Below are positions 37,893-46,256 of a stretch of 64,000 bases of DNA, one piece after another. The translations under genes and the position numbers were made by a program. The stretch is taken from positions 62,975,176-63,039,175 of the forward strand of contig CM049316.1 in the NCBI GenBank assembly GCA_026874595.1, written 5' to 3'. The number at the start of each line of letters is the position of its first letter. The first letter of the stretch is position 1. The notes beneath the pieces were generated by a model. The model searched no databases, was not told the DNA's origin, and saw only the letters and a program-made list of their open reading frames with translations. This DNA is from Sipunculus nudus (lineage: Eukaryota > Annelida > Sipuncula > Golfingiida > Sipunculidae).

Positions 37893-38463
37893 TATATGTC
37901 AAAGACGAGATTGAAATCCAAGCAAATTTTAAATTTGCCTAGACGAGATTGTGATTGTGTTCTTGCCTAGGCAAGATTGTAATTGTGATCTGGTTTAGAT
38001 GGATTTTAAACTCGCCTAGACAAGATCACAATTGCAATCTTGCCTAGGTGAGATTAAAATCCATCATGGAGCAGGTTAGGAATTTTATCTCGCCTGGATT
38101 TCAAACTCGTCTATGTCAACTAAAATGCATAATATATTAGGAAATCAGACCAGATCACTATTTTAATCTAACCTAGGCAGATTTTAAACTCGCCTAAGTG
38201 ATATCAGGCGGATTTTAAACTCGCCTGGATGATACCAGACAGATTTTAAACTCACCTAGGCGAGATTAAAATCCTGGCCTGCTCCATGATGGAATTTAAT
38301 CTTGCCTAGGCGAGACTGCGATTGTTATCTTGTCTAGGCGAGTTTAAAATTCTTCTAGGCGTGATCACAAATGCAATCTCGCCTAAGCAAGATCACAATT
38401 GCACGATTTCTTGTCTAACCAAATTTAAATCTGCCTGGATTTCAATCTTGTCTCTTACATATA
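37893..38463. mobile_element. 571-bp GCCTAGGC foldback element (compact copy)
   Basis: The ends are TATATGTCAAAGACGAGATT and, inverted, TATATGTAAGAGACAAGATT. Both arms are arrays of CGCCTAGGCG-type palindromes joined by AGATTAAAATCC, ATTTTAAACTCGCC and GATCACAATTGCAATC words. The right half matches the right arm of the 42.5-44.6 kb element in order, and the left half matches its left arm, so it is an internally deleted relative. There is no ORF. Confidence 0.85.
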
Positions 38464-39304: not shown

Positions 39305-42300
39305 CAAGGTTGGCAAGTTTTATGGCAGGAAGGTTTTAACCATAGGTTATAACCTGGTTAAAACTGCCCCGTCTAAAACAGGTTTTAGGCAGATTTTAGG
39401 CACCAAAGGTGACTAAACCCTATTTTTTTTAAATTTATGACTTATAGATCCACAATACTACAAAAATGGTTGGGGAGATGCAGTAACAAGGCTTAGTTGG
39501 GCTTCTGGAAGGTTTCAGATATTCATAATGCAGGATTTCCTGTTGACTGGGATCATGCAGTCTTCAAAGAGCCAGTATAGGTTTCTGAGCATGAGACTAT
39601 GTTTGTTTTGCATATGGTTTCATAGGCCAAGTCAATGTCTTAATCAGGACCCTTTGGTTTTCTTGATGAGTGTCTTGCTACCTGGGATGATGTAATAGAG
39701 CCTGAGTAAGGCTGGGTATCAGATTACTGATTACTATTAGGGTGATGGGGTCATAAGACCCAATGGTCATAAATCCTACAGTCCTGCTGTTTCCAAGTAG
39801 ATGTTCACATGAGCTTTCATACATCACTAGGATGATGCAATCACAGCCTGAAAACTTTTCTTGAGTCAAACGTTTTACTGACTGAGTGTAGAAGACAGGG
39901 CTGATGACTATGAAATGTAGGTTTCTCAGACTTTTAGATAGTACACAGCCAAAAGTAATTGTGAATAATCTGGGATTTGCAACATATTCACTGCAATATA
40001 TTTTTTAATTTTTCAGTTTGTACTAATTCAAGTGTTTCACAAGGGTTCCATTTTCACAATCTCACCATGCAGTTACCTTCACAGAGCATATCCATCATTA
40101 TATGGACAATAGATATGTGCACACAATCTTAAAATTTCTTAAAGGGATGATGGAGGGGAATAAACAACTAGTGAAAATTCTTATTTGTCATAAGATTTAT
40201 TAACAGATATCATATTTTCAATTTTTGGCTAACATAAATGTTATAACTTATAAAATCAATCTTTAGCTTTATGCCATTTGAAGCTACAGGCATACAGAAA
40301 ATACAGAACATACATGATATGTTAGCATGATGATTATTCATCAGTGTAGCTGGAATAACTTTTTAATTTAGGAAAAACTTCTTTTGTGTATATCACAAAA
40401 TTTAATCCTTCATGATCATAAAGCTAACTAGAATACGGGTAGTCGACAAGCACTACGTGTATCCGCCAAAATCAGAGAAGGACGGGTGAAGTAAGGCATT
40501 GATTGAGTGGCAAGGGGATATAGAGTTACATGTGTTAAATATTAGAATGGATCTCTGCCACATAAACATGATTGTAGGTGGCGCCACCTGTTATTTGAAT
40601 GAGAAACTATCCAAGATATATACACATGCAAAATTTCATGTGGAAAAGTCAAACCACTGCAGAGATATGAGTAATTTTATCCTACAGCAGACAAACAGAT
40701 TGAAGCTGTGCATAAAAGGCTGCAGGTGGCGCCACCATTTTTGTTCATGTTATAAAGCTATCCAAGGGCTACATTTGTGTAAAATTTTTTTCCTGATTGG
40801 TCAAACGGTTCCCGAGATATGAGCTTGGATGTTTGCAGCATAAACGTGAATGTAGGTGGCGCCACCTGTCATAAAATCAAGAAAGCTATCTAGGATGTAT
40901 ACACATGCCGAATTTTAGGTGAATTAGTCAAACCACTGCAGAGATATGAGTGATTTTAACCCCAGGCAGATTAACAAATGGACACTGTGCAAACATGGTT
41001 GCAGGTGGCGCCACCTTTTGTTGTGTATGTTATAAAGCTATCCCAGGGCTACATTTGTGTAAAAAATTTTTCCAGATCGGTCAAACGGTTCCTGAGATAT
41101 ATGGATTTATGTGTGGAGTGTTAACGTGAATGTAGGTGGCGCCACCTGTCATTAAATCAAGAAAGCTATCTAGGATGTATATGCATGCTGATTTTTAGGT
41201 GAATTAGTCAAACCACTGCAGAGATATGAGTGATTTTAACCCCGGGCGAACAAATGGACACTGTGCAAACATGGTTGCAGGTGGCGCCACCTTTTGTTGT
41301 GTATGTAATAAAGCTATCCCAGGGCTACATTTGTGTAAAATTTTTTTCCGGATCAGTCAAACGGTTCCCGAGATATATGGGATTATGTGTGGAGCGTTAA
41401 CGTGAATGTAGGTGGCGCCACCTGTCACAAAATCGAGGAAGCTATCTAGGATGTATATGCATGCCGAATTTAAGGTGAATTAGTCAAATCACTGCAGAGA
41501 TATGAGTGATTTTAACCCCAGGCAGATGAACAGATGGACACTGTGCAAACATGGTTGCAGGTGGTGCCACCTTTTGTTGTGTATGTTATAAAGCTTTCCC
41601 AGGGCTACATTTGTGTAAAAAATTTTTTCCGGATCGGTCAAACGGTTCCTGAGATATATGGGGTTTATGTGTGGAAACAGACTCACAAACGGACGCTGGG
41701 CAGAGACGAAAGGTCAGAGGTCAAGGTCACTTGGTTAGGCACTAGTTCACATGTGACCTGATAATTTGTGTAAGTTTCGGAAAAATCTGTCCAGTAGTCT
41801 CAGAGGAGTTCTCCGGAAACGAACGCGGCAGCGGCGGCGGAACCCGGTCAAAAACATAGTATCCGCAAAACTTCGTTTTGGCGGATACAATTACAGTATC
41901 TGGTTATAAGCTTACACTAAGTCACAGTATGGTCATTGTTTTATTGACAATAATTGCATGCAGAGGTGGGAGACCTTTGAACATGATTTGAGGATACAAG
42001 CTAAAACTGATATAGAGAACTGTGTTAATATGGACAACCTGAACTAGTGTTGTTTTCATTTGTTACTTTTATAATGGTTAAATCTGTTATATTTGAATAA
42101 AGTGTTCCTCAAGTGCTGTATTATTTTAGCATATTTCTTTAATGCATTTACCTGTGTAACAATGAAATAATTTTATGCTAGTCGTATGTGAGGAAATCTA
42201 ACTTCAAAGGTTTTAGGCAGTTAAAGGCAGTTTTAGGCAGGTTATAACCTATTTTAGGCAGTTAAAGGCAGGTTTTAGGCTCTGCCCTGCCGAAAACAGG

Positions 42301-42327
42301 TTTTAGGTGGCCTAAACCCCAACCCTG
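39305..42327. mobile_element. 3.0-kb hAT-like element with perfect 8-bp target duplication
   Basis: The ends CAAGGTTGG (left) and CAGGGTTGG (inverted right) are flanked by GACAGTTG on both sides (39,297-39,304 and 42,328-42,335). The 8-bp duplication and the CARGGTTGG terminus fit the hAT superfamily. Subterminal repeats of TTTTAGGCAG and GGTTATAACC occur near both ends (39,340-39,405 and 42,205-42,305) and are candidate transposase sites. There is no BED or hAT transposase frame, so it is non-autonomous. A 1.43-kb second element is nested at 40,459-41,888. Without it the element is about 1.6 kb. Confidence 0.85.
40459..41888. mobile_element. 1.43-kb GTATCCGCC element with ~278-bp internal repeats
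   Basis: A 13-bp inverted terminus, GTATCCGCCAAAA, lies at both ends. The inside is about four copies of a 276-280 bp unit. Each unit has two palindromes of the AGGTGGCGCCACCT type, at 40,576, 40,724, 40,854, 41,003, 41,134, 41,279, 41,410 and 41,559 (the last mutated). TCAAACGGTT followed by GAGATAT recurs in every unit, a motif seen in many mollusc repeats. The right end is CpG-rich (GCGGCAGCGGCGGCGG). No target duplication was found and no ORF spans it. Confidence 0.85.
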
Positions 42328-43032
42328 GACAGTTGGATGGAAGGATGACTGACAAAGGCCCATTAGCCCATTAATATAGCTAAGCATGAGAGTCAGTCGA
42401 GCTAAAAAAAATACTAACAGTTTGTGACTTAATGTCTGGAAGGGTACATAATATATATGTCAGAGACGAGATTGAAATCCAGGCGGATTTTAAATTCGCC
42501 TAGACGAGATTGCGATTGTGATCTCGCCTAGGCGATATTGCGTTTGTGATCTCGGCTAGACGGATTTTAAACTCGCCTAGACGAGATCACAATCGCAATC
42601 TCGCCTAGGCGAGATTAAAATCCATCATGGAGCAGGCCAGGATTTTAATCTCGCCTAGGCGAGATTAAAATCTGTCTAGTGTCATCCAGGCGAGTTTAAA
42701 ATCTGCCTGATATCACTTAGGCGAGTTTAAAATCTGCCTAGGCGAGATTATAATAGTGATCTGATCTAATTTCCTAATAAATTATGCATTGTAATTGACG
42801 TATGAAAGATGTTTTCAGTCAGATTTTCAATATCTAACACTGAATGGTTATATGTATAGTTCACAGGTAATATATTTATTAATATGTACAGAATATTATA
42901 TTATTAATGTAATAATTAACATTAATTTTTTTATTTTATATTTTTATTTATAAACTAGGTAATAAGAAACTTACATTGGTATTGTATATGGCATATTTAA
43001 ATGATATATGATGTTTGCTGCTGCTGATTATT

Positions 43033-43100
43033 GTATCCCCAGACAAAGTTGGGGGATACTATGTTTTCATACCGGTCCCGCCGCCGCTGCCACCGCATAT
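43033..43100 (-). mobile_element. End fragment of the GTATCCGCC element family
   Basis: GTATCCCC, then GGGGGATACTATGTTTT, then CCGCCGCCGCTGCC is the inverted form of the 3' end of the 40,459-41,888 element (GGCAGCGGCGGCGG, then AAAACATAGTATCC). It is nested inside the foldback element. Confidence 0.7.
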
Positions 43101-43751
43101 AAATCTTGTTTACATAATAATTTTGTTGTCAATATTAATTTGAAGGGAAACTGGTAATAGTAATATTAGTAATGTAGTATTTTAAAAAGACAAAAGGAGA
43201 CATAGCTCATTTATTATTTATCAATATAATTCAATGCATGTTCACATGCATAAATGATCTATTGATCTATGAATCTAGAAATCATATCTTTTCTGATATG
43301 ATATAATACTGTCCAAAAAAAGGCAGTTATCTTGTAACACAGTCTACATAAATACTGAAGCTTCACAAAATCCCTCACAAAACATTAAAAAAAAAGATCA
43401 GAAGAATATTATATACATTAGAAGTAAAGACTAAATAAGACAAAGAAATATTCACATGCATACATCTGTGTATCAACTTTTACCTATTCTCATATGATGT
43501 TTAATTACCTGAAAAAAAAGGACTGTGTATCAAAGTCCATCATAAATACTGATACCCTGCATATTTTGTACTATAAGTGTACATGTTTTGACTGTTGAGT
43601 GTTGAATATCTGGGTGAAAAGAAACATTTGAACCAGATCAACCAACTAATTTGTTCTGTCTGTCCTGTAAGAATTATCAAATATGATGATTGTTTATGTT
43701 AATGTGTAATATACTCTTTAAACAGTGAAGTAATATCTATCTAGACTAATT

Positions 43752-43779
43752 TATCTATCTGTCTATCTATCTATCTATG
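43752..43779. repeat. (TCTA)n microsatellite
   Basis: About seven tetranucleotide units with one TCTG variant. Confidence 0.9.
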
Positions 43780-46256
43780 ATTGATTCAATATGCAAGTGG
43801 ATGACTTTTTTCCCTCAGATTTGTTCTTCATAATATCTCAAAAGTGTGCCTCAATATACCTCTTGTTACTCGCTTGTCATATTTTAAATACAATTACAAA
43901 TTATTTTTTTGCAAAAAAATAACAAGTGATATTTACAATCCCAAGGTTGTTAAGAAAACTGGGAAAAAATAAAGATTAATTAATGTTTAGCATATAATTG
44001 GTATGGTATGGATGCTGTAGACAACATGAAACACATCAAAGGCGCAAGTAATAATCAAATAACTATTTCATAATTCTATTTCCAAAATTAATGTTAATTA
44101 TTACATGAATAATTATTAAATTACTGTAAAAAAGTTAATTATTACACTAATACTATAATATTCTGTAAATATTAATAAATATATTACCAGTGAACTATAT
44201 ATAACCATTCAGTGTTAAAATATTGAAAATCTGACTGAAAACATCTTTCATATGTCAATTACCATGCATAATATATTAGAAATTTAGGTTAGATCACTAT
44301 TTTAATCTGGCCTAGGCAGATTTTAAACTCGCCTAAGTGATATCAGGCAGATTTTAAACTCACCTGGATGTTACCAGACAGATTTTAATCTCGCCTAGGC
44401 CAGATTAAAATCCTGGCCTGCTCCATGATGGATTTTAATCCCGCCTAGGCCAGATTGCGCTTGTGATCTCGCCTAGGCGAGTTTAAAATCCGTCTAGGCG
44501 AGATCACAATTGCAATCTCGCCTAGGCGAGATCACAATCGCAATCTCGTCTAGGCGAATTTAAAATCCGCCTGGATTTCAATGTCGTCTCTGACATATAT
44601 ATCAACTAGCTGAGGCATAAATGATTTAACTGAAAATAAAACAAACTGTTCAACTACTTTCAGACAGGAATTCCTTGTTAATAAACATATTTATGACTGC
44701 ACTTTTTTGCTGAAATATGGTTAGAAATCTAGTTAATCTTCAGCAGCAGTATTAATTAAAATATTATGTACACTTTAAAATTTGTTCAGGACTACTACAT
44801 GAATCAATAAGCTTGACTTCCACAGTAATAATTCAACAGAAGAGTCAAGGTTCTTTCCCGAAAAAAGTTCCAATTTTATGGGTTTTATGGTTTTTCCCCA
44901 GACAGTCTCTCTGACCATAAGTCTATGAAAAGCTACCGTGGTAACCAAGCCTGACAGCCAAATCACTAGCTGCCAGCAAGATGGTAGCCAACAGTGGCGT
45001 TAAGCGCAATTTAACAGACCAGAAAGCATCTTGCTGATGATCTTGGCTAAAAATTACACTGAACCATTTTTTCCTCAAGTTCAGTTGTTTGCAAGGATAA
45101 TTATTTTCTTAAGATTTCTCTTATTGAGATTTATTATAATTAAATCATTTAGTATTTATGCTGATTCAGATTAGAAAGTTTGCAGAAAATGTTTCTAACT
45201 GTAAATTATAAACCATATACATAAAATTCTTAAATAATTCAGGGCCTATCTGAAGATATATCTGGAACATACATTAAAAACATTCCATATTATGGGCAAA
45301 CAATAATCATTTTAACTAGAAACATTGCAACTAGTCCATCTATCCCTTGTAACTTGAAGAGAATGAATTGTGATCATCAAGATTTGCACTAAGCATTAAA
45401 GTTTACATTTTTATACTGTAAAAATGTGCATTTATACTTGTGTCCATACTGAAATGATAAACATTGGTATTATCTGATCATAAGACCTCTATAGTATACA
45501 AAACACTGGCATTTCTACCAAAAGATTTATTGCAGTATTTAGTTCAGCATAGCTATACTACAGCCAACCACAACTGGATGATTTACTGGATGGGGCACTC
45601 AAAAATGAGAACACGCCACAGGGTCACACAAGGAGCCAATTTTCCGGGAACACCCTGTAATCTAGACATATTTGTAGGTTTTTAGGAAATAACCCCTTTT
45701 TTTCATGACCAAAGTCAACGTCAGTATTCTACTATTGTCTAACCAACTATTTCTGTGTGTGGGCCTGGCAACTATGGCACTTCCTCTTAATGAACATGTT
45801 TCAATAGTCGGATATATATGAACATTATATGCAGGCTCGATCTGCAGTTCTGCACATGTGACTGCTATGTTTGCTATATTTAGCATGGGTGGTGCAGCCC
45901 AAACTATGACACAGCTGATAAGGCAGTTAAATGATTGTATTTACACAACATATAGAGATAAGACTTAATCATGAGACAGTTACTTATAAACCGCTATACC
46001 TTATGTACTATTTAACCTTCTCACCTGCATGTTGCATAATAATCATAATTGACATATTATAAGAGTGGCCAGCTTACTGTACAGAACAAGAGTTCTGAGA
46101 CTTACCTAGTATAAGAATATAGCAGGTTAATTTTGGCCATGGTAAAGTATAGATAAATTAAACTGCACAATTTTAAAGAATGAAATTACTTTTATCTCTG
46201 TTCATGACAGTATATAATTTCTTTATTTGAATTGACATAAGTTGAGATTAAATTAT

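Follow-up and report, generated by a model that had tools for sequence, protein, structure and literature searches.

An element of 2138 bp with inverted, palindrome-rich arms in the genome of Sipunculus nudus is best read as a non-autonomous transposon of the Ginger2 type, in which the palindromes arrayed in each arm would offer several docking sites to a transposase provided in trans; we put the probability of this reading at about three in four. The element lies in a stretch of 64,000 nucleotides (hereafter the window) on contig C11. The foldback is real and mobile, and its mobility as well as its family type are well supported by copies, ends and flanks. Taken by itself, the membership in the Ginger2 type is very probable, and the docking role predicted for the array stands at roughly even odds.

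Self-comparison of the window aligned two inverted arms of 383 nt (42451-42833 and 44220-44602), which are 94% complementary and are continued inwards by a weaker stretch (42851-42943 and 44111-44203, 84%). Moreover, the window contains 14 matches to the motif CGCCTAGGCG with no more than one mismatch, 12 of which lie inside the element, compared to an expectation of 0.12, and none of 100 shuffles reached 14. Hence, the foldback with inverted-copy arms made of palindromes that was described in an earlier note on this DNA is confirmed. The coordinates proposed there, 42454-44599, locate the element but take in the 4-bp target duplication on either side; the element itself spans 42458-44595. The spacing of 40-80 bp proposed for the palindromes had to be corrected. 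Read from the letters, the left arm consists of imperfect palindromes set head-to-tail with lengths of 21, 28, 28, 21, 28, 50 and 21 nt, followed by two 21-nt units behind 10-nt spacers, i.e. unit boundaries are 21, 28 or 50 nt apart, plus the two spacers, and the CCTAGG motif is the junction between two palindromic units. The absence of a transposase from the centre, also noted earlier, agrees with the lack of any ORF of at least 110 aa in 42944-44110. The parts of the element, whose copies are called family A, are the following:

37897-38459, no strand: second family A copy in the window, 563 bp, lacking the centre, with TATA at 37893-37896 and 38460-38463
42454-42457, no strand: left target-site duplication TATA (letters and flank comparison of copies)
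42458-44595, no strand: non-coding family A foldback element, 2138 bp, TGTCA...TGACA (ends set by 42 copies; 22-nt end 533 times in the genome)
42458-42480, plus strand: left terminal 23 nt, TGTCAGAGACGAGATTGAAATCC (letters and family alignment)
42481-42606, plus strand: left array of five units ordered alike in families A to D (letters and gapless alignment), with units of 21 (42481-42501), 28 (42502-42529), 28 (42530-42557), 21 (42558-42578) and 28 nt (42579-42606)
42607-42739, plus strand: remainder of the left array, with a 50-nt unit (42607-42656), 21-nt units (42657-42677, 42688-42708, 42719-42739) and two 10-nt spacers
42740-42943, plus strand: AT-rich inner left arm (partner 44111-44313), in which the two arms agree less than in the array
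42944-44110, no strand: non-coding centre, without match to the non-family-A loci compared
43033-43105, no strand: insert of about 73 bp, present only in the window copy among the copies aligned, 78% like 41827-41891
44314-44595, minus strand: right array and terminal 23 nt, mirror of 42458-42739 (arm pairing and letters)
44596-44599, no strand: right target-site duplication TATA (letters and flank comparison of copies)

Directly left of the element, at 42210-42330, there are short repeats (TTTTAGGCAG / TTAAAGGCAG) with a 10-nt spacing.

The genome (1.43 Gb) was searched for further copies. With a 501-nt query from the left arm 1327 candidates were obtained, and the best 40 of them, which were scored, showed 94-97% identity over at least approximately 475 bases (self excepted). 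The exact 22-nt family A end occurs at 533 places, 269 on the plus and 264 on the minus strand, and the reversed control at none. Flanks were compared for 42 of 43 family A loci, the right end of L007 being unreadable. Identical 4-bp flanks surround TGTCA...TGACA in 38 of these 42 copies (unmatched in L003, L009, L015 and L032), and the target reads RTATAY in 33 of the 38. ATATAT sites, at which the duplication length is often ambiguous, account for 22 of the 38 matching copies; among lengths of 1-8 bp tested, the flanks of L028 (TACA), L033 (GATA) and L039 (CATA) match at 4 bp alone, and those of L014 (CATA) at 4 and 8 bp. Furthermore, if the flanks of L024, L041 and L058 are joined and a single TATA is retained, they match across the junction in unoccupied copies of a host repeat, which represent related empty sites; the match for L024 is found in the window itself at 40524-40720 (91% over 197 nt) and that for L041 at 40834-40967 (87% over 134 nt).

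Thus, the mobile family with shared ends and a TA or AT duplication that had been considered exists in many copies with fixed ends and a target duplication, but the latter comprises 4 bp, mostly TATA, instead of 2 bp. One or two copies without shared ends, named beforehand as the sign of a local inverted duplication, are clearly not what the genome contains. For such a duplication in place of a mobile element we found no supporting point, and it is refuted by the 533 exact ends, the 4-bp duplications and the related empty sites, which leaves it a practically negligible probability. Among 27 full-length family A copies, 21 diverge from the consensus by at most 2.2% and the others by 3.2-7.5%, with 4.0% for the window copy; since the loci were picked for good ends or high similarity, these ages are skewed to young copies. 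Left arms are closer to other left arms (0.966) than to right arms (0.951), and pairing the two arms of one copy gives no higher similarity (0.953), which argues that family A elements spread as ready-made units.

The window segment 40418-41893 is itself a repeat (array 40565-41675) with four copies of a 280-bp unit and resembles a satellite-carrying mobile element. Its relatives occur as inserts in L018, L019 and L021 and as targets of L024, L041 and L058.

The flanks of L004, L013 and L037 contain further elements whose ends are of the kind seen in family A. When such ends were sought beyond family A with a pattern, 712 places matched, with no match for the reversed control; the 100 places listed among these 712 belong mainly to family B (TGTCGAGGCCCAGATTAGAATC) and family C (TGTCACAGGCGAAATTAGAATC), together with a few variants of A, and exact family C ends number 126. 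Matching 4-bp flanks are present in 15 of 18 family B and C copies, counted at those of 20 loci with one readable end per side (L046 and L065 hold more than one element each and were left out); L061 (CATA) and L062 (TACA) match at 4 bp only. In L046, L037, L013 and L004, elements of families A, B and C adjoin in one TA-rich stretch, as is expected if the target is shared.

One family C copy, L059, measures 5122 bp with both ends exact (flanks CATA/TATA); on one of its strands there are reading frames of 454, 170 and 133 aa. The 133-aa frame matches the Pfam domain Integrase_H2C2 with 26.2 bits (cut-off 25.5), and the two core frames joined end to end match the prototype foamy virus integrase over residues 24-227 (E 9e-11), although this joined query stays below the Pfam cut-offs (24.9 versus 25.5 for H2C2, 20.3 versus 32.6 for rve). 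A second coding family C copy, L067, is 92% identical to L059 over 4 kb. A genome search with the L059 protein, in which the best 150 of 2689 candidates were scored, yielded further groups. The family D loci L068, L069, L070, L072 and L076 have ends TGTCATGGTTGAAATTCAAATC and transposases that are about 58-64% identical; the 293-aa frame of L069 clears both Pfam cut-offs (35.8 versus 25.5 for H2C2, 35.1 versus 32.6 for rve). Their flanks, judged by eye, are TATA/TATA in L069, L070 and L072 and TATA/CATA in L068, and the left side of L076 is without TATA. The coding loci L073, L075 and L077 have other ends, and their arms also look like palindrome arrays by eye. No ends were found within the stretches fetched for L071 and L074, and the coding copies examined were all interrupted, with no intact one among them.

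These features point to Ginger2, which is described in the sections of PMC2836005 consulted as having TGTNR termini, a 4-bp duplication, an RTATAY target and a transposase with an H2C2 zinc finger and a DDE core lacking GPY/F and YPYY. The earlier note knew of no named family with this repeat unit. The absence of a fitting type is not supported, since ends, duplication and target agree with the published Ginger2 and coding siblings exist. Both family A ends read TGTCA, and the 4-bp duplication (38/42) and the RTATAY target (33/38) are those of Ginger2. The H2C2 and DDE transposase is absent from the non-coding family A and present in the siblings C and D, which have an alike end design. In L059, an interrupted copy, a search for the motif strings in one frame, that of 454 aa, gave neither GPY/F nor YPYY. 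The element differs from the published Ginger2 in that Table 2 of PMC2836005 gives terminal inverted repeats of 45-297 bp, compared to arms of at least 383 nt built of palindromic units here, and in that family A is non-coding. The terms palindrom-, tandem repeat, direct repeat, foldback and hairpin are absent from the text of that paper. Ginger elements with palindrome-array ends are not described in the titles and abstract openings of the open-licence papers that literature searches listed, although a consensus may exist in Repbase or Dfam; for bivalves, the part of PMC10294476 consulted reports 98 Ginger elements.

Several other types of transposon share part of these features. Ginger1 is similar in its TGTNR termini, 4-bp duplication and integrase-like transposase, but is described with a CCGG/CCGT target and a GPY/F motif in PMC2836005 as far as consulted, whereas the family A targets are mainly TATA and GPY/F was not seen in the one L059 frame; the target speaks against Ginger1. 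Galileo and other Foldback-like elements of Drosophila also have long, internally repetitive ends, and for Galileo several transposase binding sites have been shown in the ends; however, in the part of PMC3688188 consulted it is assigned a P-superfamily transposase with a THAP domain. Here the Pfam scans of sibling frames gave integrase domains and no THAP, against an origin in the P superfamily, and the palindromic units keep a fixed order across families. Finally, another superfamily could move the element, either as a Mutator-like foldback of TA microsatellites or as a Tc1/mariner type with TA duplication. Many family A copies indeed sit in (TA)n, and MuTAnT of Medicago, a foldback too, has modular ends and inserts into TA microsatellites (PMC4486113, consulted in part). 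Yet MuTAnT is described there with a mudrA-like transposase and a 9-bp duplication, and the ITm group with a duplicated TA (PMC10045372, in the part consulted), compared to 4 bp here: of all lengths tested from 1 to 8 bp, 4 bp alone fits the flanks of L028, L033 and L039, and these three as well as L014 match at 4 but not at 2 bp. Together with the integrase-type transposase of the coding siblings, this makes a different superfamily highly improbable.

The end-pattern searches and the loci examined gave no coding copy with family A ends. This counts against the reading as a Ginger2-type element served in trans, as do the interrupted state of the coding copies examined, the joined L059 query below the Pfam cut-offs, the four of 42 copies with unmatched flanks and the CATA/TATA flanks of L059. 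Patterns for an autonomous partner with family A ends and a different interior yielded either nothing or matches at chance level (43 versus 48 for reversed controls). Five of these 43 otherwise background matches, on contigs C4, C10, C12 and C16, have TATATGTCAGAGTGACC in common and perhaps represent another repeat family with a similar start. The pairing of family A ends covered part of the genome, namely the 100 of the 533 places that were listed. The longest frame in seven long family A end pairs (L016-L022) comprises 134 aa, and the end pairs L020 and L022 contain further inserts. A 2.6-kb repeat (91-94% between loci) is inserted in the family A copies L016, L017 and L018, at an identical point in L016 and L018 and at a different one in L017.

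Large inserts between family B ends (L043) or family C ends (L044, L058, L060) contain no frame above 139 aa, and a Pfam scan of seven ORFs taken from L043, L044 and L018 returned a single hit, below threshold. With a relaxed end pattern 19 places were found versus 3 for controls, nearly all of them one-letter variants of A, B and C. A genome search with Integrase_H2C2 (6033 candidates, best 150 scored) led to four loci that resemble Gypsy-type retroelements by eye and were set aside. The candidate coding partner was reached through family C ends. Judged from its ends, which share the unit boundaries and 78% identity with those of A, family C appears to be the best candidate partner of family A.

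For 149 nt, the ends of all four families (31 rows) can be aligned gaplessly in the order 23 + 21 + 28 + 28 + 21 + 28, although their consensus sequences are only 54-78% identical. The unit boundaries resemble CGCCT|AGGCG in A and C, read GGGCC|AGCCC or GGACC|GGCCC in B and resemble CCCCC|AGGGG in D. The rows were drawn from the arms kept for alignment (65/80 in A, 10/14 in B, 18/31 in C, 7/8 in D), arms with gaps or more than 15% from the consensus being dropped. In the hairpin structure of five units, 83.3% of 1674 cells pair, compared to 20-52% if the structure is slid by 1-3 positions. Changes on both sides of a pair affect 185 cells (at most 81 in slid structures; mean 75 in shuffles, 0/500 as high), and the covariation score is 0.351 (at most 0.131 slid; 0.180 shuffled, 0/500 as high). 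On the other hand, the 26 pairs with changes on both sides do not exceed the shuffles (25.2; 209/500) and the 57 pair types are below them (63.2). When just the four consensus sequences are compared, both sides have changed somewhere in 26 of 54 pairs, versus 1-10 in 14 slides. The register is weaker in family D, with 0.74 paired versus 0.62-0.67 when slid by one. A blind segmentation into palindromes beat all 60 mononucleotide shuffles in each of seven arms, but the same borders were not recovered, since dyads lie at the centres of units as well as at their borders; the unit order is hence based on the gapless alignment and a reading of the letters. In family F the unit lengths are 22-28-28-21-28 (right end of L077) and in family E about 20-50-28-28, judged by eye (E and F comprise L073, L075 and L077).

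Within the docking reading, a transposase from a coding sibling would act in trans on the family A ends, cut at TGTCA/TGACA and join the ends to target positions 4 bp apart, like retroviral integrases do. Each palindromic unit would be a two-fold symmetric site to which a transposase dimer binds; the repetition of such sites may allow several subunits to load per end, and family specificity would reside in the letters of the units, drifting in concert, with spacing and symmetry kept. The long repetitive ends of Galileo with their several transposase sites provide a precedent, and the reason for very long, internally repetitive ends was raised there as an open question (PMC3688188, consulted in part). 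More tentatively, each end in this Ginger2-like lineage could be a fixed-order array of symmetric sites of 23-21-28-28-21-28 nt, whose letters drift together with the transposase; the array would then act as a family recognition code for the assembly of a multi-subunit synaptic complex, and cross-mobilisation would be barred unless codes match, as the CGCCT|AGGCG shared by A and C may allow.

Relatives of the retrovirus-integrase-like enzyme are generally regarded as needing no more than short ends. Foldback ends are tied here to such an enzyme, and at least four families of one lineage, in which the layout is kept and the letters differ, allow spacing and symmetry to be told apart from sequence, as in a natural experiment. 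This comparison also predicts which families would be able to mobilise one another's copies.

The main and live rival to docking, which we consider rather unlikely, accepts the Ginger2 type but denies that the palindromes are binding sites: hairpin-prone DNA would expand and homogenise by slippage, template switching or conversion, leaving symmetry and concerted change as by-products. The units of one family do change in concert, 28-nt units being more alike within a family (0.88 in whichever orientation fits better, 0.81 if compared forward) than the same unit is between families (0.63). Since the families are few and their units change together, the number of independent events is small, and homogenisation could explain the covariation. 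However, free expansion is not expected to keep the order 21-28-28-21-28 that A, B, C and D have in common, and the similarity of arms within copies (0.953) versus between copies (0.951) does not support recent conversion between arms. In coding family D copies (L068, L070, L076) the arms are 95-97% identical over the first 149 nt and 56-58% over 150-300, i.e. the array is kept, although L072 has 95% over 150-300 too. The left and right arms of the family A consensus are identical at 149/149 positions, then 98% over 150-305, and in the AT-rich inner part 94% over 306-400 and 81% over 401-480; single family A copies deviate by 1.8-2.6% from the consensus in every arm region. Because agreement between arms falls beyond the first 149 nt, it is the array, rather than the remaining arm, that mobile lineages keep.

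Alternatively, the array could act as RNA, with read-through transcripts forming hairpins that feed or escape small-RNA silencing. Folded as single-stranded DNA, the left array reaches -89.7 kcal/mol versus a mean of -36.8 in 100 shuffles (z -12.8), and paired letters change together, both in favour of this alternative; its units mostly pair with other units and not each with itself. Cruciform extrusion and a hairpin transcript may occur in the element. Nevertheless, no Rfam family matched within the window and conservation peaks at the very ends, where transposases act, which renders an RNA role improbable.

Short forms add to the picture on the side of homogenisation, as some have only two units per end. 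A 144-bp form of family C with 72 nt per end is present on contigs C1:85383528, C3:15400814 and C3:67998688, and in family A a 523-bp form occurs at two loci in addition to the 563-bp form in the window. Given 72 nt per end at three places, the long array may not be needed; 72 nt per end may suffice if these forms moved as such, the alternative being recurrent internal deletion.

As a separate observation, L014 (contig C1:76775300-76779500) holds two family A copies of about 790 bp in head-to-tail order; their left arm is long and their right end is shortened to about 38 bp. A 2-nt CA joins the termini of the copies, and the outer flanks read CATACATA on both sides.
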